Shown here piece by piece: positions 2,820-46,787 of a DNA stretch of 64,000 bases. Source of the stretch: an uncultured Clostridia bacterium (GTDB taxonomy: Bacteria > Bacillota > Clostridia > Christensenellales > Borkfalkiaceae); the NCBI GenBank assembly GCA_944367045.1, contig CALVWI010000001.1, forward strand, positions 83,051 to 147,050. The letters are read 5' to 3'. The notes under the pieces are model-generated. The model saw only the letters and a program-made list of their open reading frames with translations. It had not been told where the DNA came from and made no database searches. Within the stretch, counting starts at the first letter, position 1, and every line of letters starts with the position of its first letter. The position numbers and the translations under genes are program-made.

Positions 2820-2848
2820 TTGTATCTTTGCCGTCGATGTGGTATAAT
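2820..2848 (+). promoter_or_regulatory. Extended -10 promoter implying a leaderless helicase mRNA
   Basis: TTGTAT (2820-2825), a 17-base spacer and TGG-TATAAT (-10 at 2843-2848) form a good promoter. The ATG at 2855 begins after only six bases, where transcription itself should start, so there is no room for a Shine-Dalgarno site. Confidence 0.65.
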
Positions 2849-2854
2849 AGAGGC

Positions 2855-4114
2855 ATGGAAGCGTTGGAGCCCATTCGCCTCACCAAGGACCAGGAGGAGG
2901 CGGCCGCCCTCATCGAGGAGTGGTTTCTGCACCTGAATAATCAGATCTTCGTCCTCTGCGGCTACGCGGGCACGGGGAAGACGTACCTCGTCGACCACGT
3001 CGTGCGGGCGTTGGGGCTGAAGGCAGGGGAGAGCGCCGTGTTCGTCACGCCGACGGGCAAGGCGGCCTCCGTCTTACTTCGCGCCGGAACGCCCGCGGGC
3101 ACGCTGCACAGCCTCATCTACACCCTCGAGGAGGAGATCGACGTCAACGAGGACGGCGAAGTCGTCTCCGAACGCTTCCTGCGCTTCGTGCGGCGGGAGA
3201 AGATCGACCCCGACATCAAGCTCATCGTCGTGGACGAGACGTCGATGGTCTCTGACGAGATGCTGCGCGACCTTCTCTCCTACGGCGTCAAGTGCCTCTT
3301 CTGCGGCGACCCCGCCCAGCTGCCGCCCGTCGGAGGGAGCAACACCCTTTTGACCATGCCCTGCTACACGCTGACGCAGATCGTGCGCCAGCAGGAGGAC
3401 GACCCCATCGTGCGGCTCGCCGCCATGGCGCGGGCGGGGGAGTATATCCCCATCGGCGAATACGGCCCGCGCGCCGTCGTCATCTCGGGAAGGGACTTCG
3501 GCGAAAAGGAGCGCGCGCACTTCCTCCCCAAGGCCGACCAGATCATCGCGGGGAGCAACCGCCTGCGCGGCCGCTTAAACAGCGACTGCCGAAGGTATCT
3601 CGGCATCTCGCCCGACTGTAAGCTCCCCATCGACGGAGAGAAGCTCATCTGCACGCTGAATAATTGGAGCAAGGCGCTCGACAGGGACAAGACCTTTCAC
3701 CTCGTCAACGGCATCATCGGAAAGTGCTACAACGTGAGGGAGCAGCAGGACGGGCTCTTGCAGCTCGACTTTCAGGCGGACTTTCTGCCCGACGTCTGCC
3801 GCGATCTCCCCGTGGATGCGGGCATCTTCACCGAGGGGCGGTACTTCCACGGCTACGGCGACAAGGCGTGCACGCTCGAGAACGGCACGCTCGTGCATGA
3901 GAAGAACTATGAGTGCCTGCGCCGCTTCAAGGTGCGGCGGGAGGACACCATCGACCGCTTCGAGTTCGCCTATGCCGTCACCTGCCACAAGGCGCAGGGC
4001 TCGGAGTACGACTTCGTCATCGTGTTCGACGAGTCCCGCCTCTTCGAGGACAGCTCGCGCTGGCTCTACACCGCCATCACGCGCGCCAAGAAGAAGCTCA
4101 TCATTGTAAGATAG
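2855..4114 (+). CDS. AAA family ATPase / RecD-Dda-like DNA helicase
   Basis: This 419-residue superfamily 1 helicase has motif I GYAGTGKT (Lys42), a TPTGKAA motif Ia, a VVDETSMV Walker B (Asp127-Glu128), [11 protein letters not shown] (motif III) and a C-terminal UvrD_C_2-type block ending [11 protein letters not shown]...[11 protein letters not shown]. That combination matches Dda/RecD2-type 5'-3' helicases, but the long N-terminal region of full RecD2 (over 700 residues) is absent, so it is closer to compact Dda-like or exodeoxyribonuclease V alpha-like ATPases. It probably acts in DNA repair or replication restart in the cytoplasm. A TTG 27 bases upstream would extend the protein, but it overlaps the promoter and is rejected. 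It stands alone as a transcription unit. Confidence 0.87.
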
Positions 4115-4120
4115 TATAAG

Positions 4121-4148
4121 CGGCGGGAGGCCAAATGGCCTCCCGCCG
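4121..4148. terminator. Bidirectional terminator hairpin
   Basis: A perfect 13-bp inverted repeat (CGGCGGGAGGCCA / TGGCCTCCCGCCG) separates the convergent helicase and MATE genes. Confidence 0.7.
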
Positions 4149-4156
4149 CGAATGGT

Positions 4157-5572
4157 TTATTTTGCTTCAGGTTGCTCCGTCGTCGTCTCGGGCGGGGCGT
4201 TTTTGAGCATCTTCTTTAGAGTGAAGATCATGGTGAGGAAGCTCGCAAGTCCCCCGACGAAGTTGGAGATGGGCTCTGCGATGAACACGCCGTTCACCCC
4301 GAGGCCCAAACGGGGCAGCAGGATGGTGAGCGGCACGACGATGATGATCTTGCGGAACAGCGAGAAGAACACCGCCTGTTTGGCCTTGCCGAGGCCGACG
4401 AAGGTGCTCTGCCCCGTGAACTGGAAGGCCATGAAGAAGAAGCCGAAGAAGTAGAGGTGCATGGCGGGCACGCCCAAGTCGAGGAGCTCGGCGTCCTCCA
4501 CGAAGATGGAGAGGAGCGGCCTCGGGAAGAGGAAGAGAATGAGCCAGACGACCGCCATGTAGGAAACGCCGATGATCGCCGTGAAGGCCATCGCCTGCCA
4601 GATCCGTTTGTATTTCCCCGCGCCGAGGTTGTACCCGATGACGGGCTGCGAGGCGTTCGTCAGCCCCTGAATGGGCAGCGAGACGACGTCGCGCAGGGAG
4701 TTGAGGGCGGTCATGATGCCGATATACATGTCCGCGAGCATGACGCCGCTCACGCTCTTGAGCGTCGCATTGCAGGCGATCTGCACCGCGCCGTTGGAGG
4801 CGTTCATCACGAACCCCGTCGTCCCGAGCGCCAAGATGCTCTTTAAGATGCGCGCCTCGGGCTTGAAGTTGCTCTTTCTCAGCTTCAAGGAAGTCTTCTT
4901 GCTGCAGAGGAAGAGCAGCACCCACACGCAGGAGACGGCCTGCGAGATGACCGTCGCGATGGCCGCGCCCGCGACGCCCATGTCGAACACGAAGATGAAG
5001 AGGGGGTCGAGTGCGATGTTGACGACGGCGCCCGCCGCGACCGTCACCATGCCGTACTTGGTGTATCCCTGCACGTTGATGAAGCCGTTCATGCCCGTCG
5101 AGAGCATGACGAGGGGCGTGCCGATGAGGTAGATATTGAGGTATTCGGCGGCGTAGGGGTAAGTGGAGTCACTCGCGCCGAATAAATAGAGGATGGGTTT
5201 CATCAGGGGATAGCAGAGCGCCATCACGAGGACGGAGCAGGCAAGGAGCGCCGTGAAGGTGTTGCCCATGATCTTTTCGGCGTGCGCGGTCTCGTGGCGG
5301 CCGCGGTCGATGGAGCAGAGCGGCGCGCCGCCCGTGCCGAATAAGTTGGTGAAGGCGAGCACCAAGGTCACGATGGGGAAGGTCAGCCCCAGCCCCGTGA
5401 AGGCATTCGCGGAGTCGACGGGAAGGTGCCCGATGTAGATGCGGTCGACGAGGTTGTAGAGCATCTGCACGAGCATGGCGATCGTCATGGGCACGGCAAG
5501 GCGCGCGATGTGGCGCCGCACGCTGCCTTGCGAAAAGTCATTCTTTTGTTCGTCGGAAATGGCTGCTTTCAT
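4157..5572 (-). CDS. MATE family multidrug/Na+ antiporter
   Basis: The 471-residue integral membrane protein has about twelve hydrophobic helices in two homologous halves, as usual for MATE exporters (450-480 residues). Typical segments are the VPMTIAMLVQMLYNLVDRIYIG opening block (seen in part as PMTIAMLVQMLYNLVD), a GASDSTYPYAAEYL interhelical region, and the second-half GLTNASQPVIGYNLGAGKYKR, the family's conserved AxxPxxGYNxGA signature. It would expel cationic compounds using a Na+ or H+ gradient. It lies 27 bases downstream of the Tet-like GTPase on the same strand, so the two are probably co-transcribed. The N-terminal 15 residues are polar and cytoplasmic; the C-terminus ends in a short Thr/Glu-rich tail. 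Confidence 0.92.
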   Translation of the reverse strand: MKAAISDEQKNDFSQGSVRRHIARLAVPMTIAMLVQMLYNLVDRIYIGHLPVDSANAFTGLGLTFPIVTLVLAFTNLFGTGGAPLCSIDRGRHETAHAEKIMGNTFTALLACSVLVMALCYPLMKPILYLFGASDSTYPYAAEYLNIYLIGTPLVMLSTGMNGFINVQGYTKYGMVTVAAGAVVNIALDPLFIFVFDMGVAGAAIATVISQAVSCVWVLLFLCSKKTSLKLRKSNFKPEARILKSILALGTTGFVMNASNGAVQIACNATLKSVSGVMLADMYIGIMTALNSLRDVVSLPIQGLTNASQPVIGYNLGAGKYKRIWQAMAFTAIIGVSYMAVVWLILFLFPRPLLSIFVEDAELLDLGVPAMHLYFFGFFFMAFQFTGQSTFVGLGKAKQAVFFSLFRKIIIVVPLTILLPRLGLGVNGVFIAEPISNFVGGLASFLTMIFTLKKMLKNAPPETTTEQPEAK

Positions 5573-5599
5573 ATTCTCATGGAAGGGCGGCAGAGGCCG

Positions 5600-7480
5600 T
5601 CATTTTTTGTAGGCTCCCCGCGCGTGGAGGATCCAAAGGGAGCGGTCGAGGGGATCGACGCCCACGCGCTCGCGGCTCTCGCCCACGCCCTCGGGGCAGG
5701 GACGGTAACACTTGAGCGTGAGAAGGACGGACGCCCGTCCGCCCGAGAGGGAGGCAAGTAATTCGTTGAGGCCGAAGGTCTCGCCCGCGGGGATCTCGGC
5801 ATCGAGCGCGAAGTTCCCGCCCTCCGCAAGGGGAGTGCCGAGGACGGCGCGCCGCTCCTTGAGGGCCGATAGAATTTTCCCCATCGCCTTCTCGGGGGCA
5901 GAGAGGGAGAGCGAGAGGATGGGCTCCAAAAGTACGCTCCCCGCATTTCTGAGGCCGTCGTGGATGCCCATCGGCGTCGCGACGAAGAAGTCGAGGGGGT
6001 GGGTGTGCTGCGGGTGGTCCTCGCCGTCGACGAGGGTGACTTTGAGGTCGGTCACCTGCCAGCCGAGCCGCCCCTGCTCCAAAGCCCTCGGCACCGAGAC
6101 GCGGACATGCTCCTGATAGCGGTAGGCGATCTTCTTCTCCGAACAGACGCTCTCATAGACGAGCCCGCTGCCCTCGGGAAGGGGTTCGAGATAGAACTTG
6201 ACGACCGCCCAGCAGGGCTTGGGCATGGTGTAGCACTCAAAGCCCCACGCGGGGCGGGCGATGGTCTCGCGGTAGACGACGGAGGGCGCGCCCGTCTCGG
6301 CCTGAATGTGATAGCGCTCGAGAAGGGTATCTTTCAGCACTTCCGCCTGCACGCCGCCCGCGATGGCGACGCTTAAGTTTCGTTTCTCGGGCACCCATTC
6401 GAGGGAGAGCGACGGCCATTCGTCCGAAAGCTCTTCAAGCGCCTTTCTGAGGGCGGGCAGATCGTCCGCCGTCACCTTGACGCGGAAATAGGGCGAAGGG
6501 GGAGCGTAGGGAATGGGGGGCTTTGCGCCCAGAAAGTCGCCCGCGCGCACGTCGGAAAGGCCCGTGACCGCGCCCGTTTCGCCGTCCGTGAGGGTGTCGA
6601 CGTCCTCGTATTTTCCCCCGCGGATGCGCTTCAACTGCCCAGCCTTGAAGGAGCTGCCCGTGCGGAGGTTTTTGACTTCCTGCCGCACCGAGAGCGTGCC
6701 GCCGAAGAGGCGAATGTGGGCGAGCTTCCCGAGTCCCGCGCGGTGCTCCACCTGATAGACGAACGCCGAGAAGGGGGCGTCCTCGTGCCGCTCGAAGGAG
6801 AAATAGCGGGTGAGCGCGGTGAGAAGTTCCTTCACGCCCGCGCCCGTGCGCGCACTGCCATATAGAAGGGGCGCAATTTTGCCCTCGGAGCACGCCTTCT
6901 GCAGCGCCGCCGTGAGCGCCTCCTCGGAGAGCGAACCTTCGAGGTATCGTTCGAGCAGCGTCTCGTCGCCGAGGGCGGTCACCGCCTCTTCCGCAATGTC
7001 AACGGCGCCGTTCGGCGCGTTGAGGGGGAGAATTTCCCTTGTCAGGCGGCGGGAGAGGGGCTCCAAGACGTTTGGCGAGGGCTCCAAGTCGCATTTGTTG
7101 ACAAAGAGGACGAGCGGGAGGGCGCGCTTTTCGATGAGGGAGAGAAGGAGCTCTGTCTGCGCCTCCACGCCGTCGCGCGCGGAGATGATGACGACCGCAA
7201 CGTCCACCGCTGCGAGGGCGAGCTCGGTCTCCTCGGAAAAATCGGCATGGCCGGGGGTGTCGATGAGGTCGAACTTCACCCCGCCGTATTCAAATGTCAC
7301 GGTCGCATCGCGCACGGAGATGCCGCGGGCGCGCTCGACGGAGAGGAAATCGAGAGAGGAAGTCCCCTCGTCCACGCTCCCCTTTTGGCGGAGCGCTCCG
7401 CTCTCGAGAAGGAGCCGCTCGGAAAGCGTCGTCTTGCCCGCGTCGATGTGCGCGAAGATGCCGATATTCAGCGTTCTCAT
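5600..7480 (-). CDS. Tet(M)-like ribosomal protection / translation-factor GTPase
   Basis: This 626-residue EF-G relative carries all GTPase motifs: AHIDAGKTT (residues 10-18), an effector loop, DTPGHADF, and NKCD, followed by an EF-G domain II to V order as in Tet(M/O/W) (about 640 residues). The C-terminal domain has the GSVLLEP segment corresponding to tetracycline-protection proteins rather than housekeeping EF-G. Sequence divergence is visible across domain IV and the C-terminus, so it may be a true tetracycline-resistance factor or one of the chromosomal translation-factor GTPases of unknown drug range. The frame is open far upstream, but the ATG at 7480 is chosen because the protein family begins there and because a consensus promoter ends 7 bases before it; the mRNA should be leaderless. 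MATE follows in the same unit. Confidence 0.85.
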   Translation of the reverse strand: MRTLNIGIFAHIDAGKTTLSERLLLESGALRQKGSVDEGTSSLDFLSVERARGISVRDATVTFEYGGVKFDLIDTPGHADFSEETELALAAVDVAVVIISARDGVEAQTELLLSLIEKRALPLVLFVNKCDLEPSPNVLEPLSRRLTREILPLNAPNGAVDIAEEAVTALGDETLLERYLEGSLSEEALTAALQKACSEGKIAPLLYGSARTGAGVKELLTALTRYFSFERHEDAPFSAFVYQVEHRAGLGKLAHIRLFGGTLSVRQEVKNLRTGSSFKAGQLKRIRGGKYEDVDTLTDGETGAVTGLSDVRAGDFLGAKPPIPYAPPSPYFRVKVTADDLPALRKALEELSDEWPSLSLEWVPEKRNLSVAIAGGVQAEVLKDTLLERYHIQAETGAPSVVYRETIARPAWGFECYTMPKPCWAVVKFYLEPLPEGSGLVYESVCSEKKIAYRYQEHVRVSVPRALEQGRLGWQVTDLKVTLVDGEDHPQHTHPLDFFVATPMGIHDGLRNAGSVLLEPILSLSLSAPEKAMGKILSALKERRAVLGTPLAEGGNFALDAEIPAGETFGLNELLASLSGGRASVLLTLKCYRPCPEGVGESRERVGVDPLDRSLWILHARGAYKK

Positions 7481-7487
7481 GGGGGAT

Positions 7488-7516
7488 ATTGTAGCACGGA
7501 AGGGGGAGAATGTCAA
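7488..7516 (-). promoter_or_regulatory. Promoter of the Tet-like GTPase, leaderless
   Basis: On the minus strand TTGACA (7511-7516), 17 bases and TACAAT (7488-7493) are followed by 7 C-rich bases and the ATG at 7480. No Shine-Dalgarno site fits. Confidence 0.7.
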
Positions 7517-7568
7517 TGTTGCCTGCGCGCGGAGAGGGCGGGGAAAGCGGGAAATTTGCGAAAAACTC

Positions 7569-7597
7569 TTTACACGCGCCCGATTTTGGTATATAAT
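7569..7597 (+). promoter_or_regulatory. Promoter of the membrane-protein pair
   Basis: TTTACA (7569-7574) and TATAAT (7592-7597) with a 17-base spacer. An AAAGGAGG ribosome binding site lies just before the ATG at 7631. Confidence 0.7.
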
Positions 7598-7630
7598 GGG
7601 AAAGAGTGAAATCTTAAAAGGAGGTGCGGA

Positions 7631-8452
7631 ATGAGGATCGTCTACGACCACTGGACGTATATTTTCAAAAACCTGTGGTTCATTCTGCCCTTTGCGGTCA
7701 TTCCCGCGCTCTTTCTTTCCCTCTCGATGGACTTTTCTGCCATCGAGGCCTTTTGGCGCGGCCTGTTTACGGGGGATTTCGTCACCGACTGGTTCGAGAT
7801 CTTCTCCGCCTTCAGCCTCTTCGGCTTCGGCACCGCGCTCGACATCGTGTATGCCGTCTGCGGCGTCGTGTGCGTGCTCGTGTTTATGTCCCTGACGCTC
7901 GCGTTCGTCGAAAAGCACATGCGCATCGGCAAGCGGTCGCTCTCGGGCATCCTCTCGCAGTTCCGCGGCGTGTTCGCGCCCGTCACGGGCATGATGCTCG
8001 TCGTCCTCGTCCTCTATGAGGCATGGGCGCTCGTGCTCTCCGCCATGCTCTATTCCATTCTGTCCGTCGCGTCGACGGCGGCGGTCATCGCCTTGTCGCT
8101 CGTCGTCATTGTGGTCTTTTTTGCGGCACTTTTATATCTCATCTCGCTCATCTATCTCTGCCTTCCGTGCATGCAGATGACGGGCCTCGGCCCCCTTCAG
8201 TCACTGCTCTATTCCTACCGCCTGATGGTGGGGGTGCGCGGGAGACTCCTTCTGTCCCTTCTGATGTCCTTCCTGCCCGCCGCGCTCATCGTGTGGGGGG
8301 CGTCCTTCCTGCCCGAGGCCGCATCCGTCATCATCGGCCTCGTGCTCTTCACCTTCCTCTTCATGAGCTACTGCGTTCGCATGGAGACCTTCTACTTCGC
8401 GACGGACAAGCTCGACAGAGAGGACCTTCTCATGAGTTACAGGGAGCTTTAA
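7631..8452 (+). CDS. Polytopic membrane protein of unknown function (first of a pair)
   Basis: The 273-residue protein shows about six hydrophobic helices with short charged loops and no recognisable catalytic motif. A start at 7631 is fixed by an excellent AAAGGAGG site. The overall pattern (long hydrophobic pairs with a central cytoplasmic loop containing KHMRIGKRSL) resembles bacterial membrane domains such as the glycerophosphodiesterase membrane region or DUF975-type proteins, but I cannot identify the family. It is separated by a single base from the next membrane protein, whose architecture is similar; the two probably form one complex or are ancient duplicates. Confidence 0.75.
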   Translation: MRIVYDHWTYIFKNLWFILPFAVIPALFLSLSMDFSAIEAFWRGLFTGDFVTDWFEIFSAFSLFGFGTALDIVYAVCGVVCVLVFMSLTLAFVEKHMRIGKRSLSGILSQFRGVFAPVTGMMLVVLVLYEAWALVLSAMLYSILSVASTAAVIALSLVVIVVFFAALLYLISLIYLCLPCMQMTGLGPLQSLLYSYRLMVGVRGRLLLSLLMSFLPAALIVWGASFLPEAASVIIGLVLFTFLFMSYCVRMETFYFATDKLDREDLLMSYREL

Positions 8453-8453
8453 C

Positions 8454-9428
8454 ATGGCTATCAAACGCGCGCTTCGGCTTCTCACCGACAACTTCACGAA
8501 CACCTTCAAGCTGCTCTTATACCGCCTTGTGATGGGGGCGCTCTTCGTGGGGCTCTCCTACTTCATTCTCGATCTCGGCCTTCGCAGCCTTCTCGAGGGG
8601 CCGGAGATGCAGAACGTCATCACGATGGTGGGCGACTTCTTCGAGGCGCTCTTCTCGGGACGCACGGGGTATCTCGAGGCCTTCCGCGAGAACTTCACCG
8701 AGGCCTTAAAACAGCTCCTCACCGCCTTTACGGCAGACTTGAGCTCTATCATCGGCTCGTTCGCGGGCGTCGTGGTGCTCTATCTCGTGTTCCGCTTTTT
8801 GAACGGCATGGCGACGTTCGCCATGATGAGCATCTCCTTCGACAGGATGTCCGCCTTCGGCAAGACGAGCTTCTCCGCCGCCTACTTCGAAAACCTGGGC
8901 CGCGCGGTGCGCTATCACCTGCTGTACGTGCCCATCTCCTTCGTGTATGACGTCCTGTCGCTCGCGCTGTGCTGGTTCCTGTTCTTCTATACCCCCTCGC
9001 TCATGGGGGAAACGAGCGTCCTCACCGTCTTCGTGGGGCTCTCGCTCACCGTCGCCGCCTATATCATCCTGCAGTCGCTCAAGATGACCTTCATCTCCTC
9101 GTGGATGCCCTATGCCGTCGAGCACAAGAAGGTCATTGCGGGACTTAAAGACAGCTTCACGCTGAAGGGCAAGTTCGTGCGGCGCTTCGTGAGCTTTCTT
9201 TTGGCCATCTATCTCATGGTCGTCATCAACGTCGTGTGCGCGTTCTGCACGCTGGGGAGCCTGCTCCTCATCTCGCTGCCTGCAAGCAGCTTATATCTTC
9301 TCTGGCTGCAGCTCGTCCTCTATTACCACGAGAACGGAAGAAAGTACTATCTCCACGCCCGCAAGGTGGTGGGGGATGCCGAGGACATGCCCGTCGAGAG
9401 CGAGATCGACCTCGACCTTGAGAGCTGA
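8454..9428 (+). CDS. Polytopic membrane protein of unknown function (second of a pair)
   Basis: The 324-residue protein starts one base after the preceding stop, so the two are almost certainly translationally coupled. It has about six transmembrane helices and an acidic, Asp/Glu-rich C-terminal tail after residue 300 that should be cytoplasmic. The central region contains the motif SFDRMSAFGKTSFSAAYFEN between helices, comparable in position to KHMRIGKRSLSGILSQF in its partner, which supports a paralogous pair. No enzyme motif, transporter signature or binding domain could be recognised, and no function is proposed. Confidence 0.75.
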   Translation: MAIKRALRLLTDNFTNTFKLLLYRLVMGALFVGLSYFILDLGLRSLLEGPEMQNVITMVGDFFEALFSGRTGYLEAFRENFTEALKQLLTAFTADLSSIIGSFAGVVVLYLVFRFLNGMATFAMMSISFDRMSAFGKTSFSAAYFENLGRAVRYHLLYVPISFVYDVLSLALCWFLFFYTPSLMGETSVLTVFVGLSLTVAAYIILQSLKMTFISSWMPYAVEHKKVIAGLKDSFTLKGKFVRRFVSFLLAIYLMVVINVVCAFCTLGSLLLISLPASSLYLLWLQLVLYYHENGRKYYLHARKVVGDAEDMPVESEIDLDLES

Positions 9429-17713: not shown

Positions 17714-17742
17714 TTGTCGAATTTCGGCGGATATGGTATAAT
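17714..17742 (+). promoter_or_regulatory. Extended -10 promoter implying leaderless pcrA mRNA
   Basis: TTGTCG (17714-17719), 17 bases, then TGG-TATAAT (-10 at 17737-17742). ATG codons lie at 17750 and 17759, at or just after the expected transcription start. Confidence 0.68.
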
Positions 17743-17749
17743 GTTTTTC

Positions 17750-20116
17750 ATGAACGATATGAAGCTCAATGAAGAACAGCGGCTGCCCGTCGAGACGACG
17801 GAGGGGGCCGTGCTCGTGCTCGCGGGCGCGGGCAGCGGCAAGACGCGCGTTTTGACGGCGCGCATCGCCCACCTCGTGGAGGATCTCGGCGTCCCGCCCG
17901 AGAATATCCTCGCCATCACCTTTACCAACAAGGCCGCAAACGAGATGAAGGAGCGGCTCTCCCTCATCGCCGATACCCGCCGCATGTGGGTGAGTACCAT
18001 CCACTCCATGTGCGTGCGCATCTTAAGGATGTATGCGGACAAGCGCGGCCTCACACAGAACTTTTCCATCTATTCCGAGCAGGAGCGCACCGCCGTCATC
18101 AAACAGGCGTTCAAGGAATGCGGCTTCGACGAGGACGACCTCTTGAAGAGCATCAAGTGGCACATCTCCAACGCCAAGATGCTCGGCCTTTCCCCGCGCG
18201 AATATGCCGTAAAATATCGAACCGAGCGCAACGTCGAGGAAGCGGTGAAGGTCTACGAGAAGTACGATGCGCACTTAAAGCAGAACAACGCGCTCGATTT
18301 CGATGACCTCCTCACTGAGGCGCGCGACCTGCTCGCCTCCGACAAAGAGGCGCGGGAGTATCTCGCGGGCAAGTTCCGCTATATCCACGTCGACGAGTTT
18401 CAGGACACCAACGCCGTGCAGTTCGACATCGTGAAATTGCTTGCGAGCGTGCACGGCAACCTCTTTGTGGTGGGCGACGACGACCAGTCCATCTACGGCT
18501 GGCGCGGGGCGCAGATCGAGAACATTCTCCACTTCGAGCGCACCTATCCCAACGCCAAGACCTTCAAACTGCAGCAGAACTACCGCTCCACGAAGGCCAT
18601 TCTGGCGCTTGCGAATGCGTCCATTTCTCACAACCTCAACCGCAAGGGCAAGCAGCTGTGGACTGAGAACGAGGCGGGCGAGAAGCCCGTGTGGTATGAG
18701 GCGGACGAGGAGGCGGGTGAGGCGCTCTATGCGGCGCGGCTCATTTCCGAACTGCGCCGTCAGGGCTACAAGCTCTCCGACTTCGCCGTGCTCATGCGCA
18801 TCAACGCCCTCACGCGCTCCTTCGAGCAGGAATTTACCAAGTACGGCATCGCCTACAAGGTGTTCGGCGGCTTCCGCTTCTATGAGCGCAAGGAGATCAA
18901 GGACGTCCTTGCCTACCTTCGCCTCATCTCCAACCCGTTCGACAGCGAGGCCGTCTCGCGCATCATCAACGTGCCGAGAAGGGGCATCGGCGAGAAGACG
19001 ATGGAGACCCTCCGCGCCTATGCGGACAGGGAGGAGCTCTCCCTCTACGACGCCGTCCTCGACTGCGACCTTCTTCCCCTCACCGAGGGCGTCAAGAAGA
19101 AGCTGCGCGACTTCGGCAAGTATATCAAGGAGCTCGTGATAGAGGCGCAGGAGGCGCCCGTCAACGAGCTCGTGACGACGCTCATGGAGACCTCGGGCAT
19201 GCGGGAGATGTATCTCGACGGCACGGACGAGGGCGCGGCAAAACTCGCGAACTTGGACGAGTTCATGAACTCCGTCGACGAGTTCGTGCGCATGAACCCC
19301 GAGGCGACGCTTTCCGACTATCTCCAGCAGATCACGCTGTATTCGGACACCGACGAGATGGACGAGAGCGACTATGTGACCATCGCGACCATTCACGCCG
19401 TCAAGGGCCTCGAGTTCCGCTGCGTCTTTTTGTGCGGGCTCGAGGAGAACATCATGCCCACCTCGCGCGCGCAGGATTCCCCCGAGGCGCTCGAGGAGGA
19501 GCGGCGGCTCATGTACGTCGCCATCACGCGGGCGAGGGAACGGCTCTGGCTCACGCGCAGCCGCTCGCGCTACCTCTACGGAAGGCGGGAGCAGACCGTG
19601 CGCTCGGAATTTGTCGACGAGCTCAAGGACGAGCTGGGCATCGAGGACACGAAAGCCCGCTACGGCGGCGACTTCGGCGACGAGGACGGCGGCGGCTATG
19701 GCTACGGCTACAGTGCGCGGCGCTCCTACGGCGGGTACGGCGGCTACGGGAGCGGGTATCAAAGTTCCGCCCCGAGAAGGGTAGGGAGGGCCTCCGACGA
19801 CGAGGGGTTCCGCACTTACGGGAGCGGCAAGGCCGTCTCAAAGAGCGTGCCCGCGAGGAGCGAGAAGAAGGCGCCCGTTCGCTTCGGCAACGTGGGCGTC
19901 ACATCTTCGACGGCTTCGCAGACCGCGCAGAAGGCGGCGGGGAAGGACCTCTCGGGCTACAAGGAGGGCGTCAAGGTGCGCCACCCCCGCTTCGGCGAGG
20001 GCGTCGTCACGGGCGTGAGGGGAGCGGGCAGCAACGTCATCGTCACCGTCCGTTTCGATACGGCGGGAAACAAGGACCTCGCCGCGGCGCTCGCGCCCTT
20101 GGAGATCGTCGGATAG
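17750..20116 (+). CDS. pcrA: ATP-dependent DNA helicase PcrA/UvrD
   Basis: This superfamily 1A 3'-5' helicase of 788 residues (PcrA is usually 720-760) shows the Q-motif LNEEQ, GAGSGKT (Lys31), TFTNKAANEMKERL, VDEFQDTNAVQ, GDDDQSIYGWRGA, QQNYRST, TIHAVKGLEF and VAITRARERL. It works in nucleotide excision repair and in removing RecA or stalled complexes. The C-terminus ends in a Tudor-like module (VRHPRFGEGVVTGV) that binds RNA polymerase in PcrA. Between them is an unusual Gly/Tyr-rich linker around residues 645-675. The start was placed at 17750 because the -10 element overlaps any earlier codon; 17759 is also possible. ligA follows after 9 bases. Confidence 0.95.
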   Translation: MNDMKLNEEQRLPVETTEGAVLVLAGAGSGKTRVLTARIAHLVEDLGVPPENILAITFTNKAANEMKERLSLIADTRRMWVSTIHSMCVRILRMYADKRGLTQNFSIYSEQERTAVIKQAFKECGFDEDDLLKSIKWHISNAKMLGLSPREYAVKYRTERNVEEAVKVYEKYDAHLKQNNALDFDDLLTEARDLLASDKEAREYLAGKFRYIHVDEFQDTNAVQFDIVKLLASVHGNLFVVGDDDQSIYGWRGAQIENILHFERTYPNAKTFKLQQNYRSTKAILALANASISHNLNRKGKQLWTENEAGEKPVWYEADEEAGEALYAARLISELRRQGYKLSDFAVLMRINALTRSFEQEFTKYGIAYKVFGGFRFYERKEIKDVLAYLRLISNPFDSEAVSRIINVPRRGIGEKTMETLRAYADREELSLYDAVLDCDLLPLTEGVKKKLRDFGKYIKELVIEAQEAPVNELVTTLMETSGMREMYLDGTDEGAAKLANLDEFMNSVDEFVRMNPEATLSDYLQQITLYSDTDEMDESDYVTIATIHAVKGLEFRCVFLCGLEENIMPTSRAQDSPEALEEERRLMYVAITRARERLWLTRSRSRYLYGRREQTVRSEFVDELKDELGIEDTKARYGGDFGDEDGGGYGYGYSARRSYGGYGGYGSGYQSSAPRRVGRASDDEGFRTYGSGKAVSKSVPARSEKKAPVRFGNVGVTSSTASQTAQKAAGKDLSGYKEGVKVRHPRFGEGVVTGVRGAGSNVIVTVRFDTAGNKDLAAALAPLEIVG

Positions 20117-39154: not shown

Positions 39155-39536
39155 GGGCCTGTATTGGATTCGATTGCAAGCGGAATCTGTCGGATGCACG
39201 TCGGAGGCTCGGCTCCGTAAAAACGGGAATTTTTTAAATGCTGATAAGAAAAGCAGAAGATCTGTCGCTGCACGTGCAACTCGCCGCGTAGCGCTTGCGG
39301 CCTAACTTTTTAGGCTCCGTCTCCTTCAGGCTGCCCACGGCCTGATACGAGGCGTCAATTGAGTGGGGAACTCTTCTCTTCGGCTGACTTCCCCCGTTGA
39401 GAGGTGATTTTCGGAAGTATGCTCAAAAAAAGGTCGTCGGTGAACTTTTTTTGGGCGAGACCGATCGCCGACTAAGCGTGTAGTATCCGCGGAGGAACCT
39501 TGTAAGACCGCAGTTCGATTCTGCGCAGGTCCACCA
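39155..39536 (+). ncRNA. ssrA: tmRNA (SsrA)
   Basis: The RNA of about 382 bases rescues stalled ribosomes. Its tRNA-like ends pair: 5' GGGCCTG with 3' CAGGTCC, including the G3-U wobble needed by alanyl-tRNA synthetase, then A-CCA encoded in the genome. The T arm is CGCAG-TTCGATT-CTGCG, and the 5' side has the conserved TTGGATTCGA. The tag reading frame most likely resumes at the GCA at 39253 and ends at the TAG at 39289-39291, giving Ala-Glu-Asp-Leu-Ser-Leu-His-Val-Gln-Leu-Ala-Ala. The last residues are QLAA rather than the usual ALAA. It follows the recG block, and a terminator lies directly downstream. Confidence 0.95.
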
Positions 39537-40678: not shown

Positions 40679-40821
40679 CTGTTTGAAACGATGATTTTTT
40701 GGATGACGGCAAGCAATTTTCTGCGATGCTCCAAACAAAGACGGGAGCGAGGTAGGATTCTTTCGGGGTGCAGACGGGGTGAAAAGGCACGAAAATTCCT
40801 CTGAAAGGTAAAAGGAGTATT

Positions 40822-41058
40822 ATGCAGCAGATAAAACTTGAAACAAACGAACTTGGCCTTAAAGTATTCATCAACGGCGTGCCCGACATCTCCCTCATGC
40901 CTGAAGAGACGAAAGAGGGGTTTTTAAGGACGTTGGAGCGGGAAATTGCGGAATATGGCTTGGAGGGGGCGGCGCGGAAGGGGACGCTTTTTGATTTGAA
41001 GATAATTTTGCAATCGAGAGTTATTTTTTACAATACGTATGATTCAACAGTTGTATAA
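40822..41058 (+). CDS. Small hypothetical protein running into the GH1 promoter
   Basis: The 78-residue product starts after a good AAAAGGAG site. Residues 1-55 look like an ordinary soluble protein (KLETNELGLKVFINGVPD, then an amphipathic helix). The last 17 or so residues are encoded by the bipartite AraC-type site and -10 of the downstream GH1 gene (41006-41059). The stop codon itself overlaps the -10. This suggests the gene lost its original 3' end when the glycan locus was joined here. Function unknown. Confidence 0.5.
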   Translation: MQQIKLETNELGLKVFINGVPDISLMPEETKEGFLRTLEREIAEYGLEGAARKGTLFDLKIILQSRVIFYNTYDSTVV

Positions 41059-41059
41059 T
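41006..41059 (+). promoter_or_regulatory. Promoter of the GH1 operon with bipartite AraC-type site
   Basis: TTTTGCAATCG (41006-41016), 11 bases, TTACAATAC (41028-41036), 17 bases, TATAATG (41054-41060). The half-sites start 20 bases apart. There is no -35 consensus, which fits activation. The transporter promoter at 46800 has the same layout. Confidence 0.65.
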
Positions 41060-41100
41060 GAGAGCGCGATCTGGAATAGGGTCGCATAAGAGAGGCTGTA

Positions 41101-42402
41101 ATGAGTTTTTGTAAGAATTTTATGTGGGGTGCGGCAACGGCTGCCTTTCAGGTGGAAGGCGCGTATGCGCAGGACGGAAAGGGACCGAGCATCTGGGACG
41201 AATTGAGCGAGGGCAAGATCCTGCACGGCGATACGGGAAATGTCGCAGCCGATCATTACCGGCGTTGGCGCGAGGATATTGCCCTTATGCGGGAGATCGG
41301 GATCAATGCCTATCGTTTTTCTGTCAGTTGGGCGCGCATCTTCCCTTCGGGAGACGAGGTCAACGAGAGGGGGCTTGCCTTTTACCGAGAGCTTGTCAGA
41401 GCCTTAAAGGAGGCGGGGATCGAGCCTGTCTGTACGCTCTATCACTGGGATCTTCCCATGTGGCTGCACGAGCGCGGCGGGTGGCTCAATGAGGAGACGG
41501 CTCTCAAATTTGCAGAGTTTGCCCGTACTGTATGTGAGGCGCTTTCGGAAGATGTCAGGTATTGGATCACCATCAATGAACCGCAGTCGTTTATTTGCGC
41601 GGGATACGAAAGCGGAGTACATGCGCCCTTCGAGTCATATCCGCTTCCGGTACTCAGAAAAATTTCTCGTATCGTTATGCTGGCGCACGGCATGGCGGTC
41701 AGGGAGATCAGGGAATGGGCAGAATTGAAGCCCTTCATCGGATACGCGCCGACGGCGAGTGTGTTTGTTCCGTACGATGATTCTGAGGAAGAGATCCGAC
41801 GTGCGCGGGAGAGGACGTTCTCGGTGGAGCGGGCGGGCAGCGCGGCGTGGTGGTCCGATCCCATTGTAGCGGGGGTCATCCCCGATGGGTTTGAGGACGT
41901 TCTCTCCCGAGAGGACATGGCAACCATCTGTCAGCCCCTTGATTTCTATGCGTTTAATGTCTATACCGCGTTGAATTACGAGGCGGAGGAGAAACGCTTT
42001 ATAAAGAGCGGGATGCCTCGCACCGCCTTCGGGTGGGTCATCGACCCGAAGAGTATCTACTGGGCGGCAAAGTTTTTTTATGAAAGATATCGGCTTCCCA
42101 TTTTGGTCACGGAAAACGGGATGGCGAACGTCGACTTTCCGATGCACGACAAGAGGGTGCGCGATCCTCAGCGCATCGAATACATCCGCTGCTATCTTAC
42201 GGAGCTGAAGCGCGCTTCGGAGGAGGGGATCCCCGTCGTAGGCTACTTCTATTGGTCGCTGCTCGATAACCTCGAGTGGGCGATGGGATACGATATGCGC
42301 TTCGGGCTCATCTACGTCGATTTTCAGACGCAGGAGAGGACGCTCAAAGATTCCGCTTATTACTACCGCAGCGTCATTGAGCAAAACGGGGAGGACTTAT
42401 GA
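41101..42402 (+). CDS. GH1 family beta-glycosidase
   Basis: The 433-residue retaining glycosidase has the acid/base Glu160 in TINEP and the nucleophile Glu338 in VTENGM, the N-terminal signature FMWGAATAAFQVEGA, and YFYWSLLDNLEWAMGY near the end. GH1 enzymes in Bacillota act on beta-glucosides, beta-galactosides or their 6-phosphates. Residues typical of phospho-specific enzymes could not be confirmed, and no PTS is nearby, so a non-phosphorylated substrate is likelier. There is no signal peptide. It is the first gene of a three-gene operon with the GH78-like enzyme (4-base overlap) and the esterase. GAGAGG precedes the ATG. Confidence 0.93.
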   Translation: MSFCKNFMWGAATAAFQVEGAYAQDGKGPSIWDELSEGKILHGDTGNVAADHYRRWREDIALMREIGINAYRFSVSWARIFPSGDEVNERGLAFYRELVRALKEAGIEPVCTLYHWDLPMWLHERGGWLNEETALKFAEFARTVCEALSEDVRYWITINEPQSFICAGYESGVHAPFESYPLPVLRKISRIVMLAHGMAVREIREWAELKPFIGYAPTASVFVPYDDSEEEIRRARERTFSVERAGSAAWWSDPIVAGVIPDGFEDVLSREDMATICQPLDFYAFNVYTALNYEAEEKRFIKSGMPRTAFGWVIDPKSIYWAAKFFYERYRLPILVTENGMANVDFPMHDKRVRDPQRIEYIRCYLTELKRASEEGIPVVGYFYWSLLDNLEWAMGYDMRFGLIYVDFQTQERTLKDSAYYYRSVIEQNGEDL

Positions 42403-44468
42403 GCACACCTTTTACAAAGGCGAAATGGATCTGGCTCGATGCGGAGAGATATCCCGATCATCAGGAGAGCGCCTATACGTTCTTTTGCGAGAAGAAATCG
42501 TATTGTGTCGCGCATTTCAAAAAGACGTTCTTTTGCGAGGAAACGGTCGCGCAAAGCACCACGTATGTGAGTGCGGACTGCAAATATCTGCTGTGGCTGA
42601 ACGATGAGATCGTTTCTCGCGGGCCGGCGGCCGTGGGCGGGGACTACGGAAACACGCAGCCTCTCGGCTACCGCTTCTTCGATCGTCCGTACCTTGCATA
42701 CCGAAAGGGCGAAAATACGGTGGAGGCGCTCGTTGTGCTGCAGCCTGCGATGGAGAGCGACTATTCGGACGGGCACGGAGGGTTTATTTTTGAGTCCGAT
42801 ATCGTGTATGCGAGCGGGAGAGAAAAACGTTTCATTTCGGACGAAAGTTGGGCTGCGAGGAAGGACGAGGCGTTTGAGCGCACGTTTTATACCGACTTGA
42901 CCAAGAAGAGCGGGCCTTTTTTTCCGGCCGAGGTTTCGGAATTTCCCCGCCATTTGGTCGAAAAGAATATTCCGGAGCTGGCGTGTACGCCCCATCGCCC
43001 GGTCGGGGACGGGGAGTTCGCGGTTCGGGAGGGCGGGAGCGTCCTTCTCGATTTCGGCAAGGTGTTCAGCGGATATCTGCGGCTTTTTGGCCGTTCTGAG
43101 GGGGAGAGCGCTCTCACGATGGAATTTTTCGAGCGGGAAGGCTATCCCATTACCTTCCGCGATTCGGGGAAGGAGCATTTGAAACTTCCCGAGGGCCCGT
43201 TCGCTTTTACGCATCTGCATCTCAGGAGCGCGCGGTATGTAAAGATCACGGCGGAGCGAGGAGGGGCCGTCTTCCGTGCGGCGTTCGATCATGTTGTCTA
43301 TCCGGCTCTGAGACGCGGGAGCTTTCGCTGCAGCGATGAGCGGCTTGAACGCATCTACGAGGTGTGCGTCCGCACAACGCTGAACTGCATGAACACTTAC
43401 CACATGGATTCCCCCGTTCATCAGGAGGCGATCGGCTGTACGGGCGATTATCTCATTCAAAGCCTTGTGGGCTACTATGCGTTCGGGGATACTGCTCTCA
43501 CGCGCCTCGACTTGTGGCGGGACTGCAGATACTTTGAGCTGAAGAACGGGCATCGCCTGCACACCGCTTACGGTATAATCTGGGTGGAATGGCTGCTCGA
43601 TTATGTGAGATATTCCGGCGATATGGACTTTCTCGCTCAGGCCGAGAACGCCCTGAATATCCTGATGGCACGCTATGAGAGCTATCTTGACGAAAACGGC
43701 ATCGTTTCCCGTTCGCACAACTTCTGGTTCATCGATTGGTCGCTTCCGGAGGGGATCGGAATGGAGGACGCAAAGATCGTGTGGCAGGCTGCGCTCACGG
43801 CGTTCACCTACCGTGGGTTCGCCTGTGCGGCCGAACTCATGTACAGGCTCGGCAAAACAGCTTTGGCCGAACACTACGACTGCGTTGCGGCGGCCATCAG
43901 GAGAGGGTTCTGCACTGTCTTTTGGGACGAGGAGAGGGGCCTGTATTTCGGCGGTCTCGAGAGGGACGGCACTGTCGGGAGAAAGTACTTTGGAACGCAG
44001 GAGAACATTCTTGCCGTTCTGTTCGGCCTGACAGACCGCGATCCCGTCGCCATCATGGAGAAGGTGGTGAACGACGGCAGCCTGACGCAGCCGCAGCCAT
44101 ACTTTATGCACTTTCTCTTTCAGGCGCTCAACAAAGTCGGGCTGTTTGAAAAGTACGCTCTCGGACTGCTGCTGCAATGGGTGGACCTGCTTGCCGAGTG
44201 CGACAGCTCTCTCAAAGAGATCCGCGGGGAGATGCCGGGCTGCGATTATTCGCACGCGTGGTCGGCGACGCCTGCCTTTGTCATGCCGGCCCTCATTCTG
44301 GGAGTTTCTCCCGCTGCAGACGGGTTCGCAAAGATCGGATTTGAGCCGCATCTCTGCGGGTTGGAATGGGCGGAGGGGGTCATCCCCACGCCGCATGGAG
44401 ATTACTTCGTGCGCATCGACGCAAATGGAAAGAAGATGGTAAAATTGCAAGGAGAAAAGGTATCATGA
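42399..44468 (+). CDS. GH78-like alpha-L-rhamnosidase family protein
   Basis: The 689-residue protein has the GH78 plan: an N-terminal beta region (residues 1-300) with the WIWLD start common to this family, an (alpha/alpha)6 barrel from about 310 to 620, and a short C-terminal beta domain (KIGFEPHLCGLEWAEG). The family's acid loop D-[CS]P-R-x-E-x-x-G-W-x-G-D appears as DSPVHQEAIGCTGD (Asp337, Glu343, Asp350) with Cys in place of Trp and His-Gln before the Glu. It would release rhamnose or a similar sugar from glycosides in the cytoplasm; the altered loop may mean a different substrate. Overlaps of four bases at both ends show tight coupling to GH1 and the esterase. Confidence 0.82.
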   Translation: MSTPFTKAKWIWLDAERYPDHQESAYTFFCEKKSYCVAHFKKTFFCEETVAQSTTYVSADCKYLLWLNDEIVSRGPAAVGGDYGNTQPLGYRFFDRPYLAYRKGENTVEALVVLQPAMESDYSDGHGGFIFESDIVYASGREKRFISDESWAARKDEAFERTFYTDLTKKSGPFFPAEVSEFPRHLVEKNIPELACTPHRPVGDGEFAVREGGSVLLDFGKVFSGYLRLFGRSEGESALTMEFFEREGYPITFRDSGKEHLKLPEGPFAFTHLHLRSARYVKITAERGGAVFRAAFDHVVYPALRRGSFRCSDERLERIYEVCVRTTLNCMNTYHMDSPVHQEAIGCTGDYLIQSLVGYYAFGDTALTRLDLWRDCRYFELKNGHRLHTAYGIIWVEWLLDYVRYSGDMDFLAQAENALNILMARYESYLDENGIVSRSHNFWFIDWSLPEGIGMEDAKIVWQAALTAFTYRGFACAAELMYRLGKTALAEHYDCVAAAIRRGFCTVFWDEERGLYFGGLERDGTVGRKYFGTQENILAVLFGLTDRDPVAIMEKVVNDGSLTQPQPYFMHFLFQALNKVGLFEKYALGLLLQWVDLLAECDSSLKEIRGEMPGCDYSHAWSATPAFVMPALILGVSPAADGFAKIGFEPHLCGLEWAEGVIPTPHGDYFVRIDANGKKMVKLQGEKVS

Positions 44469-45496
44469 AGCAAAGAGAGATCGTTTTGAACGAAGAGCGG
44501 AACGTTCGGCTCGTTCCCTATATCCTGGAGTGCGGCGGCGAGTTTACGCACACCCGAAAACGGCCTGCGGTGCTGGTCGTTCCCGGGGGAGCCTATCTGT
44601 ACTGCTCGGCGCGGGAGGCGGAGCCGGTCGCACTTGCCTACAATGCGGCGGGATACCACGCCTTTGTGCTGTACTATTCCGTCGGGAAGGATGTGGGGGA
44701 CTTTGCGCCCCTTTGTGACTTCGATGCCGCAATGGAGCACATTCTCTGCCATGCGGAGGAGTACGGGGTGGAGTGCGGCAAGATCGCTGCGATCGGGTTT
44801 TCGGCGGGCGGTCATCTGGTGGCGTGCGCTTCCGCAATGGCGGAGCACAGGCCGTTTGCCTCCATTCTCGGCTATCCCGTCACTTCTTCAAAATTGCAGC
44901 GGGTACTCAACTTCCTGCTGCCCGTCGCCGCCGAGGCGGTCTGCCCCGGCATGCCTCCCGTGTTTCTCTTCTCTTCCCGCACGGATATCCTGGTGGATGC
45001 TTCGGATACCGCGGAATTTCTCGAAGCGCTCTGTCTTGCGGGGGTGAGCTATGAGTGCCGCACGTATTCGTTTGCGGAGCACGGCTTTTCGCTCGGAACA
45101 TATGAAATGATCGGCGACGGCGAAGGACAGTGCTGCAGGGTCGGAGATTGGTTTCCCGCTTCCCTGAGCTGGCTCCGCGAGGCGGAGCGGGGGCTGCTGC
45201 GGCGTCCGCTTGTCGGTGCGCAGCGGGACGGCAGGACCCCGTTCCTGTCCATCCGCAATTCGACGTCCTATCTCTTCGGGAACAAGACCGCGCGCGAGCT
45301 GACGGAAGCCGTTCTGGACGGAGTGCCTCTTTCGGACGGGGAGTTTGCCGCTCCGCTTTCACATGTCCTGTGGGGAAGGAAGATCGGGCTTTCCCGTATC
45401 CGAGGGCTTGAGAGAGAGCTGTCGCATATCCGGGATGACCGGTTCCCGCTGGAAGAGATCTTTGACGAGATGGCAAAGTCGGCAAACAGAAGATGA
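44465..45496 (+). CDS. Alpha/beta hydrolase (carbohydrate esterase-like) with C-terminal extension
   Basis: The 343-residue enzyme has an alpha/beta-hydrolase domain of about 235 residues with PGGAYLYCS (oxyanion loop), nucleophile Ser113 in IGFSAGGHL, Asp174 in SSRTDILVD and His206 in FAEHGFS. This is the arrangement of the BD-FAE/acetyl-xylan-esterase-like (AXE1/Lip) group that removes acetyl or feruloyl groups from sugars. The last 100 residues are unusual: after the catalytic domain a segment (RDGRTPFLSIRNSTSYLF...) resembles no common module. It has no signal peptide. The start overlaps the GH78-like stop, so it should act on the same imported glycosides. Confidence 0.83.
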   Translation: MKQREIVLNEERNVRLVPYILECGGEFTHTRKRPAVLVVPGGAYLYCSAREAEPVALAYNAAGYHAFVLYYSVGKDVGDFAPLCDFDAAMEHILCHAEEYGVECGKIAAIGFSAGGHLVACASAMAEHRPFASILGYPVTSSKLQRVLNFLLPVAAEAVCPGMPPVFLFSSRTDILVDASDTAEFLEALCLAGVSYECRTYSFAEHGFSLGTYEMIGDGEGQCCRVGDWFPASLSWLREAERGLLRRPLVGAQRDGRTPFLSIRNSTSYLFGNKTARELTEAVLDGVPLSDGEFAAPLSHVLWGRKIGLSRIRGLERELSHIRDDRFPLEEIFDEMAKSANRR

Positions 45497-45504
45497 GCAG
45501 ACAA

Positions 45505-45533
45505 AAAATGAGCGGTTACGAACCGCTCATTTT
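45505..45533. terminator. Bidirectional terminator overlapping the araC stop codon
   Basis: A perfect 13-bp stem AAAATGAGCGGTT / AACCGCTCATTTT with ACG loop. The plus strand continues TTTGTTTTG and the minus strand TTTTTTGT-like. The AraC regulator's stop (45516-45518) lies across the loop. Confidence 0.8.
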
Positions 45534-46751
45534 GTTTTGTTTTCGAAATTGTGTGGGCGTCATGCCGGTAATGCGCTTGAAGATGTTCTGGAAGTAGCTC
45601 TGCGAGGAGAAGGAGAGCAGTTCGGAGATCTCCGAGAGGGGTTTTTCGGAGAGAACGAGAAATTGTTTTGCCCGCTTGATCTTTTGTGCCTGGATATATG
45701 CGATCACGCTCACACCCATCGATTTTGAAAATTCGGAACAAAAGTACGACTTGCTGGCATGAACGTGGTCGGCGAGTTCCTGAAGGGTGATCCTCCTGTC
45801 GCAGTGCTCGTTGATGTAGGCGACCGCCTGATTGACGATGGGAACGTCCGAAACGTTTTTATATTTTTCATATTCCACCTGCTGACAAAAGTCGACCATC
45901 ATATTGAAGCGCAAGTCGACAAGTTTTTTGATGTCGTGGCAGTTTTCCGTCTTGGTGATGTATGCGTTCCGCATACGGTAGATGTCCTCTTGCGGAATGC
46001 CTGTCTCCAGGACGGCGTTGGATACGATGCCGATAGCGATGATACATTTGTCCTTTGCGGTGCGCAGAGAGGTGTATTCCGAGCCGCTTGTCATGACGTT
46101 CCCCGAGGCTTCCTGCCACATTCGCGTGAGCTGGTCGGTCATGCCGTTTTTGATGAGCGTCAGAAAGCGCCGCTCGTAGTCGTAGTAGTTGCTCTTTTCG
46201 ATCTCGCCGAATACGAGGTCTTCAAAGTGATACATTACCTCTCTGTGGATAGGGACATCGAATTCCGGGGAGGGCTTTACGACTTTCATGGAGTCCGGCG
46301 TGACGATCTTTCCCTGGGTCACCGCAATGAGGCTTGAGAGGATATATCCCACTCTTCCGATCTGCATGATGGGAATGGCGTTGAGATAGTTCTCGATCGA
46401 CTGATAGACGGCATCGCTGATGGGCACGTCCTTGATCTTCAGCGTACTGCCGAGGAAACTGTCGCGGTTGATCTCCACCGAGGGGATGGGACCGAGGAGC
46501 ACGGAGAGCGTGCTGTTCTTATTCCTGACATATCCGTATGAGAGCAGGTTGACCGATTGGAAGAGAACAAAATCTTCCTCCGTTGCGGAGGCGCGCATTC
46601 TGAGGTCCTTGCCCAGCAGGTCTTCAAACGCAGCGGGAAGGGGGACCAACTCTTCCTTTAAGATGAGCAGGTCGTTTTTGTAGACCCGGACGGGAATGCC
46701 GTAGATCTGGTGCAGGCATTGACAGTAATGGAGAAAGATTTCTTTTTTCAT
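45516..46751 (-). CDS. AraC family transcriptional regulator of the glycan locus
   Basis: The 411-residue protein ends in an AraC DNA-binding domain of about 100 residues: first helix-turn-helix ITLQELADHVHASKSYFCSEF, quoted in part as LQELADHVHASKSYF, and second PLSEISELLSFSSQSYFQNI with the family's F-K-R-I-x-G-M-T-P-x-Q-F-R ending. The N-terminal 290 residues are not a cupin and show no membrane helices; they contain a PocR-like or GAF-like sensor pattern I cannot name with confidence. It lies between the two glycan operons, divergent from the transporter, and probably activates both through TTACAATAC-type sites. The consensus promoter ends 7 bases before the ATG. Confidence 0.88.
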   Translation of the reverse strand: MKKEIFLHYCQCLHQIYGIPVRVYKNDLLILKEELVPLPAAFEDLLGKDLRMRASATEEDFVLFQSVNLLSYGYVRNKNSTLSVLLGPIPSVEINRDSFLGSTLKIKDVPISDAVYQSIENYLNAIPIMQIGRVGYILSSLIAVTQGKIVTPDSMKVVKPSPEFDVPIHREVMYHFEDLVFGEIEKSNYYDYERRFLTLIKNGMTDQLTRMWQEASGNVMTSGSEYTSLRTAKDKCIIAIGIVSNAVLETGIPQEDIYRMRNAYITKTENCHDIKKLVDLRFNMMVDFCQQVEYEKYKNVSDVPIVNQAVAYINEHCDRRITLQELADHVHASKSYFCSEFSKSMGVSVIAYIQAQKIKRAKQFLVLSEKPLSEISELLSFSSQSYFQNIFKRITGMTPTQFRKQNKMSGS

Positions 46752-46758
46752 GCTTTTT

Positions 46759-46787
46759 ATTATATGGCCATCTTTCCGTTCTGTCAA
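46759..46787 (-). promoter_or_regulatory. Consensus promoter of the AraC gene, leaderless
   Basis: Minus-strand TTGACA (46782-46787), 17 bases, TATAAT (46759-46764), then seven bases to the ATG at 46751. No Shine-Dalgarno sequence fits between. Confidence 0.72.

Follow-up and report, generated by a model that had tools for sequence, protein, structure and literature searches.

A predicted class of leaderless genes with a short, conserved -10 to ATG distance in the Candidatus Gallimonas lineage of Clostridia

Introduction

Why should four unrelated genes on one stretch of clostridial DNA each have a promoter whose -10 box ends only six or seven bases before the ATG? The stretch in question (the window) is the whole of the 64,000 nucleotides analysed from an uncultured Clostridia bacterium (assembly GCA_944367045.1, contig CALVWI010000001.1, positions 83,051 to 147,050 of the forward strand), and the four genes are predicted to encode a RecD-like helicase, an EF-G-like GTPase, PcrA and an AraC-family regulator. 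An earlier reading of the same letters (the original prediction) had proposed that these genes form a real class of leaderless mRNAs, perhaps tied to stress-responsive 70S initiation. The geometry of the promoters, their excess over the chance level, their conservation among orthologues and their restriction to a lineage were all shown from sequence, and leaderless expression of these genes is considered very likely on that basis. The interpretation thus survived as to the existence of a class, while its link to stress did not.

The four promoters of the window

Spacing is written here as Nx, where x is the number of bases between the end of the -10 hexamer and the start codon. The four promoters were re-read and cut out by script and were found at the predicted places, with 17-base spacers, N6 or N7, and no Shine-Dalgarno (SD) site (Table 1). 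An extended -10 (TGn) is present in three of the four, the AraC promoter being the one without it. No SD site at a usable spacing was found at any of the four ATGs, each read at its coordinates; the helicase has a GAGG, but merely one base before its ATG. The TIGR04094 model (below cut-off) aligns residue 12 of the AraC regulator with model position 4, so its ATG fits the full length of the family.

Table 1. Promoters, predicted leaderless genes and operator in the window (positions are those of the window)
Feature	Position	Strand	Arrangement or basis
LexA (SOS)-type operator GAACATACGTTT, overlapping the helicase -35	2810..2821	+	pattern match
Promoter of RecD-like helicase: -35 TTGTAT 2820-2825, extended -10 TATAAT 2843-2848	2820..2854	+	TTGTAT-17-TATAAT-AGAGGC-ATG, N6; coordinates re-cut by script
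RecD/RecD2-like SF1B helicase, 419 amino acids, predicted leaderless	2855..4114	+	AAA_30, UvrD_C_2; RecD2 model below cut-off
EF-G-like GTPase, relative of tetracycline ribosomal protection proteins, 626 amino acids, predicted leaderless	5600..7480	-	tet_protect 406 bits, cut-off 775
GTPase promoter: -35 TTGACA 7511-7516, extended -10 TACAAT 7488-7493	7481..7516	-	TTGACA-17-TACAAT-ATCCCCC-ATG, N7; coordinates re-cut by script
pcrA promoter: -35 TTGTCG 17714-17719, extended -10 TATAAT 17737-17742	17714..17749	+	TTGTCG-17-TATAAT-GTTTTTC-ATG, N7; coordinates re-cut by script
pcrA (UvrD/PcrA helicase), 788 amino acids, predicted leaderless	17750..20116	+	TIGR01073 761 bits, cut-off 911
AraC-family regulator, 411 amino acids, predicted leaderless	45516..46751	-	HTH_AraC
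AraC regulator promoter: -35 TTGACA 46782-46787, -10 TATAAT 46759-46764	46752..46787	-	TTGACA-17-TATAAT-AAAAAGC-ATG, N7; coordinates re-cut by script

Excess of the N6 spacing in the source genome

The original prediction had suggested a scan of the genome for this arrangement against a background. In the source genome (labelled G000; 1.887 Mb in 46 contigs), TATAAT-N6-ATG was matched 30 times and N6-7 together 49 times, out of 324 matches at all spacings from 0 to 30, while the other 29 spacings averaged 9.48 matches each (Poisson P = 8e-8 for N6, 0.004 for N7 and 6e-9 for the two together); an N6 excess over the other-spacing control was therefore found. Counts of the reversed pattern were also low (1 versus 30 for N6, 81 versus 324 for all spacings together), and as this control was low for the pooled spacings too, reliance was placed on the spacing control.

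A sample of 464 kb, made up of the window and 20 stretches totalling 400 kb and with a GC content of 58%, gave a histogram of TATAAT-to-ATG distances with its peak at N6, where 14 matches were counted versus 0-7 at every other spacing from 0 to 59; N7 was not raised (4), and no N6/7 peak was observed in the sample for GTG or TTG starts. Promoters were also scored in this sample upstream of 308 crude gene calls (longest open reading frames (ORFs) of at least 150 codons). Nine calls had a scored promoter at N6/7, and eight other spacing pairs had 11 together (none at N2-5, one at N8-9, none at N10-11, one at N12-13 and two to four per pair at N14-19), from which the class is estimated to take in about 3% of genes. 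All nine lack an SD site. The GTPase start was missed by the crude calling because its ORF extends far upstream. The claim that most other genes here have strong SD sites held only in part: of the 308 calls, 49% had an SD-like pentamer or hexamer ahead of at least one possible start within their first 80 codons, versus 14% in the control (codons 80-160 of ORFs of at least 250 codons).

The base preceding the start codon was examined in TATAAT-N6-ATG matches from G000 (30 of 30 matches) and two further genomes, G030 (30 of 39) and G009 (30 of 57). Among those followed by an ORF of at least 60 codons and preceded by a -35 (the strict N6 set), the base was C or T in 51 of 52 cases (19/19, 20/20 and 12/13, respectively), compared to 143 of 204 SD-led ATGs (P ~2e-6) and 23 of 38 other N6 matches (P ~4e-6). 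RNA polymerase prefers a purine start after a pyrimidine. With a -10 ending six bases before the ATG, position +1 falls on the A, and a peak confined to ATG is what would be expected if +1 must be A.

Conservation among orthologues

A full-length RecD-like helicase locus was obtained from 29 of 37 genomes of the same genus, the window's included; a thirtieth (L163) was cut by a contig end and dropped. The start codon lies at N6 in 26 of these loci and at N7 in three. An extended -10 (TATAAT, TATACT, TACAAT or TAAAAT) is present in all 29, with spacers of 17 or 18 bases as picked by the script, and in two loci (L147 and L152) the start was re-read by eye, the script having taken an in-frame TTG. 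Two orthologues start with GTG despite the ATG-only peak in the sample. The distance from the start to a conserved protein motif ranges from 4 to 15 codons (the motif was not found in one locus), and since N6/7 stays constant while the length of the N-terminus varies, the helicase start is tied to the -10 and not to the protein.

These loci bear on the alternative that the start codons are wrong, translation beginning at downstream SD-led codons and the ATG standing beside the -10 by chance. In some pcrA loci, the window's among them, a further in-frame ATG, GTG or TTG does lie a few residues from the proposed start. However, the helicase loci invariably place ATG (or, in the two cases above, GTG) at N6/7 despite their variable N-termini, and in several genes protein domains begin 2-8 residues past the proposed ATGs (EF-Tu GTP-binding domain 2, PHP 4, PcrA 6, TsaE 7, HTH 8), so that misassigned starts are highly improbable.

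For pcrA, loci from 51 of 53 relatives together with the window gave 52 for comparison (L072 and L083, without the N-terminus, were left out). A -10 was found in 48, at N6-9 in 35 and at N21-80 in 13, with none between, and a 17-base spacer was picked in all 48. The constant spacing that had been predicted therefore holds at 6-7 within the window and widens to 6-9 across pcrA relatives. The nearest PcrA relatives are from an uncultured Clostridia bacterium (87%) and Candidatus Gallimonas gallistercoris (84%). On a quickly built PcrA tree, in which L080 and L068 were flagged as long branches, 29 of the 31 rows in the window's clade are leaderless by promoter position, and the label changes about seven times (at least four forced) versus 14.5 for shuffled labels, where the label 'leadered' includes L037, L066 and L067, in which no -10 was found, and L080, which has no motif. 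As pcrA switches between the two states on the tree, gain and loss of leaderless initiation become testable in relatives.

The GTPase has TTGACA-17-(-10)-N6-8-ATG at all seven same-genus loci (the window and orthologues L165-L170), and the spacing is kept even where the -10 is TATTCT, TATCCT or TACACT. L171 and L172, relatives that come from other families, were read by eye as having SD-like starts. Close orthologues of the GTPase (61-92%) were present in 6 of the 36 other genomes of the genus.

A different explanation would accept the promoters as real and have translation proceed mainly from longer transcripts, produced by readthrough or from a second upstream promoter, so that the promoter near the ATG is incidental. 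It is considered improbable, because neither the four window genes nor the nine gene-anchored cases have an SD site that a longer transcript could use, and because the spacing has been preserved across divergent orthologues of pcrA, the helicase and the GTPase.

Some points weigh against leaderless expression. The state is not fixed in every member, since 17 of the 52 rows in the PcrA tree are leadered, lack a visible -10 or lack the motif. The spacing is N8-9 in 23 of the 35 close-spaced pcrA cases, where a leader of one to three bases may be left. Longer mRNAs could also arise by readthrough from genes upstream. Finally, 11 of the 30 N6 matches in G000 are not ORFs of at least 60 codons with a -35, so that pattern matches alone are no proof.

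Distribution across the lineage

The number of TATAAT-ATG matches at N6-7 was compared to that at N13-14 in genomes at three levels of relatedness, the counts being transcribed by hand. In the 37 genomes of the genus 2093 matches were found at N6-7 versus 817 at N13-14 (2.6-fold), with a ratio above 1 in all 37 and P <0.01 in 34. Twenty-four genomes from other families of the same order gave 1668 versus 1585, with P <0.01 in five (G038, G041, G049, G051 and G052), while 298 other genomes of the phylum gave 21311 versus 24001 (0.89-fold), with P <0.01 in a single genome and a largest ratio of 1.57 among the 244 genomes with at least 40 matches. A matched-background check on 109 of the 298, which were hand-picked and incomplete for the stated range, gave 3505 versus 3815. 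A phylum-wide trait was rejected on the 0.89-fold ratio across the 298 genomes; AT-rich genomes dilute the signal, and small leaderless sets elsewhere are still compatible with the survey. On these counts the trait is characteristic of the genus and perhaps of some neighbouring families, and it may reach beyond the genus within the order. NCBI places Gallimonas in Clostridia incertae sedis. In GTDB it belongs to Christensenellales.

One genome, G003, was an outlier with 115 matches at N6-7. An origin of these matches in genes was rejected in favour of a dispersed repeat, on the basis of the context of three loci, the recurrence of a few hexamers and, in about half of 30 loci, identical bases following the ATG. 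The repeat carrying TATAAT-N6-ATG reads TATAATAAGGACATGTTTCG ... CAACATGACGTGATT in G003 and TATAATTCCGTCATGTTGAGC in G009, and it inflates the counts; repeat loci in the two genomes include L104-L106, L110, L236, L246 and L250.

Repeats of this kind lend some colour to a reading of the whole pattern as chance, compositional artefact or dispersed repeat, since they exist in G003 and G009 and raise the counts there. Without these two genomes, however, the genus still gives 1903 versus 788, the strict set of G000 consists of diverse protein genes, and the spacing controls are low (N0-30 in G000, N13-14 in the genus). Repeat removal, gene diversity and spacing controls together exclude this reading for the set as a whole, and it is almost certainly wrong.

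Members of the predicted class

Seven likely orthologues (59-94% identity) are common to the strict N6 set of G000, which has 19 ORFs, and that of G030, which has 20 drawn from the first 30 of 39 N6 matches, versus approximately 0.25 expected (P ~1e-9, with 1,500 genes assumed). They were paired by BLASTP inside the strict sets and not as whole-genome reciprocal hits. Members named by Pfam in G000 include an M24 peptidase, an integrase, TsaE, HTH regulators, a radical SAM enzyme, GidB, heptaprenyl diphosphate synthase component I, a galactokinase-like kinase, a cation efflux protein, an acyl-ACP thioesterase, thymidylate kinase, a PHP-domain protein, a nucleoside hydrolase, adenine deaminase and an M50 peptidase, and DNA polymerase I (polA) has TACAAT-N6 in the same genome. 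G030 adds UvrC, a TilS-type protein, RuvX, shikimate kinase, an aminotransferase-V and fumarase. The predicted set is thus mixed and mostly housekeeping.

The conclusion that these genes belong to a real leaderless class, as had been predicted, is well supported by the spacing excess, the specificity for ATG, the pyrimidine before it, the conservation among orthologues and the confinement to a lineage. What a dedicated stress-response class would require is members chosen for 70S initiation under stress. Several DNA-repair genes are indeed among them (pcrA and polA in G000, uvrC and ruvX in G030), and an operator of the LexA type lies on the helicase promoter in 25 of 29 loci, in strict form in 17. 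Against this, the members named by Pfam are mostly housekeeping enzymes, transporters and regulators; a window pattern scan found no GAACN4GTTY box at the pcrA, GTPase or AraC promoters; and lexA itself, with a like operator, has a leader. A class of this kind is very improbable, and the proposed tie to stress-responsive 70S initiation was not upheld, given the diversity of the members and the presence of the operator at the helicase alone of the four.

The LexA-type operator of the helicase

The operator box stands at one fixed place in the 25 helicase loci that have it, as GAAC-N4-GTTT in 17 and as AAAC-N4-GTTT in eight, the pattern used admitting AAAC as well as GAAC; four loci have none. 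Nine lexA genes of the genus, including that of the source genome, have GAAC-N4-GTTT upstream in five cases and AAAC-N4-GTTT in four (these four read by eye), and a leader with an SD-like GAGG or GGAG was read by eye in all nine genomes. As lexA has an operator of this kind and yet is leadered, SOS control and leaderlessness are separate properties; a LexA operator, moreover, acts on transcription. The remaining two GAACNNNNGTTY matches in the window, at 18101 and 36758, lie away from the pcrA, GTPase and AraC promoters, and the LexA pattern is not in excess in the window (3 matches versus 4.3 expected). Taking the conserved box together with the lexA comparison, the RecD-like helicase is very probably SOS-induced, as a member of the SOS regulon in the genus. 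The helicase is short, at 419 amino acids, and its match to the RecD2 model is partial.

The LexA sites of C. difficile are mostly listed as GAAC-N4-GTTT (PMC4234289), the form found at the window operator. The word 'helicase' is absent from the main text of that report, whereas the Gallimonas group has the operator on the predicted leaderless promoter of a short RecD-like helicase.

Proposed mechanism and comparison with known systems

From the sequence patterns above we infer the 5' ends of the transcripts and the mode of ribosome loading. An ordinary housekeeping promoter, with a -35, a 17-base spacer and in most cases an extended -10, would be placed close to the gene, and RNA polymerase would start on the A of the ATG, or no more than about two bases away, aided by the preceding pyrimidine. 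The mRNA would then begin with AUG and be translated without an SD site, its 5'-terminal AUG presumably being recognised by 70S ribosomes or by 30S subunits loaded with fMet-tRNA and IF2. Loading by 70S ribosomes or by fMet-tRNA/IF2-primed 30S subunits is known for leaderless mRNAs elsewhere (PMC10783764, PMC5397173). In Candidatus Gallimonas and its neighbours this would be an inherited, standing mode of expression for about 3% of genes, and related species would use it for the same ones. A further suggestion, to which we give a small chance, is that selection keeps a defined set of genes leaderless in the Gallimonas lineage because leaderless initiation serves as an expression channel of its own, such as one in which translation continues when SD-dependent initiation is limited.

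The original prediction that leaderless mRNA is uncommon in Bacillota agrees both with the literature and with the 298-genome survey. Zheng et al. 2011 (PMC3160421), who described this very signal, reported leaderless genes in 56 of 209 Firmicutes genomes, mainly in Lactobacillales and Mycoplasma, with a mean of 4.2% leaderless genes in those Firmicutes having TA-led genes. The TA-led genes resemble the present ones in having a TANNNT -10 box approximately 12 bp upstream of the start and an extended TG, the latter seen in several genomes of low GC content, Lactococcus among them; the Gallimonas lineage differs in belonging to Clostridia and in being GC-rich (58%). Among clostridia with mapped transcripts, 15 leaderless genes were listed for C. 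difficile (PMC7438776), 4% of one class of transcription start sites (TSSs) in C. phytofermentans lay at the start codon, generally with a ribosome-binding site and another TSS (PMC5171806), and approximately 2% of mapped starts in C. autoethanogenum had under 10 nt (PMC6873888). As here, the share of starts that coincide with the start codon is a few per cent or less in these species; however, leaderless mRNAs were called few there, or rarer than elsewhere, whereas the genes described here lack SD sites and are conserved gene by gene across the genus.

The same promoter geometry is known from Deinococcus-Thermus and Actinobacteria (PMC3160421, PMC5552922), where the class averages are 39% and 19% of genes, respectively, compared to about 3% here. 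Transcription of two D. deserti genes was mapped from the first base of the ATG (PMC5552922, PMC3160421), and radiation did not induce either of these leaderless transcripts, an argument against any link to stress as such. In the open-access literature no paper was found that has 'leaderless mRNA' together with 'Christensenellales', nor any that has 'leaderless' alongside 'Gallimonas'. The signal is thus of a known kind, and the Gallimonas lineage is new for it as far as the open-access literature shows.

A gut Clostridia lineage with a conserved leaderless class would stand out from the mapped clostridia, which have few such genes. If selection does keep the set leaderless as a channel of its own, the group would serve as a clostridial model for setting leaderless against SD-led versions of pcrA in sister species. 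Gene-prediction programs that look for an SD site may assign such starts wrongly.

Other observations

Fumarase and CAAX-protease-like genes diverge in G030 (L230/L231, G030:C15:18518-18602), where both ATGs stand at TATAAT-N6 and the two -10s are 55 bases apart, forming a two-way predicted leaderless promoter. Similar spacing appears in listings for G029:C8, G015:C6, G003:C91 and G009:C24, which may represent the same gene pair.

A cysteine-rich small protein of 61 amino acids is predicted to be leaderless in G030 (L206) and G009 (L248); L206 has no Pfam match. Its gene diverges from lexA in G030, and the corresponding G000 gene upstream of lexA (L200) seems, as read by eye, to be leadered with an SD site. 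A conserved protein of 85 amino acids is predicted to be leaderless in both G000 (L018) and G030 (L227), with no Pfam match for L018. The window also contains a tmRNA gene at positions 39155-39536 (136 bits).

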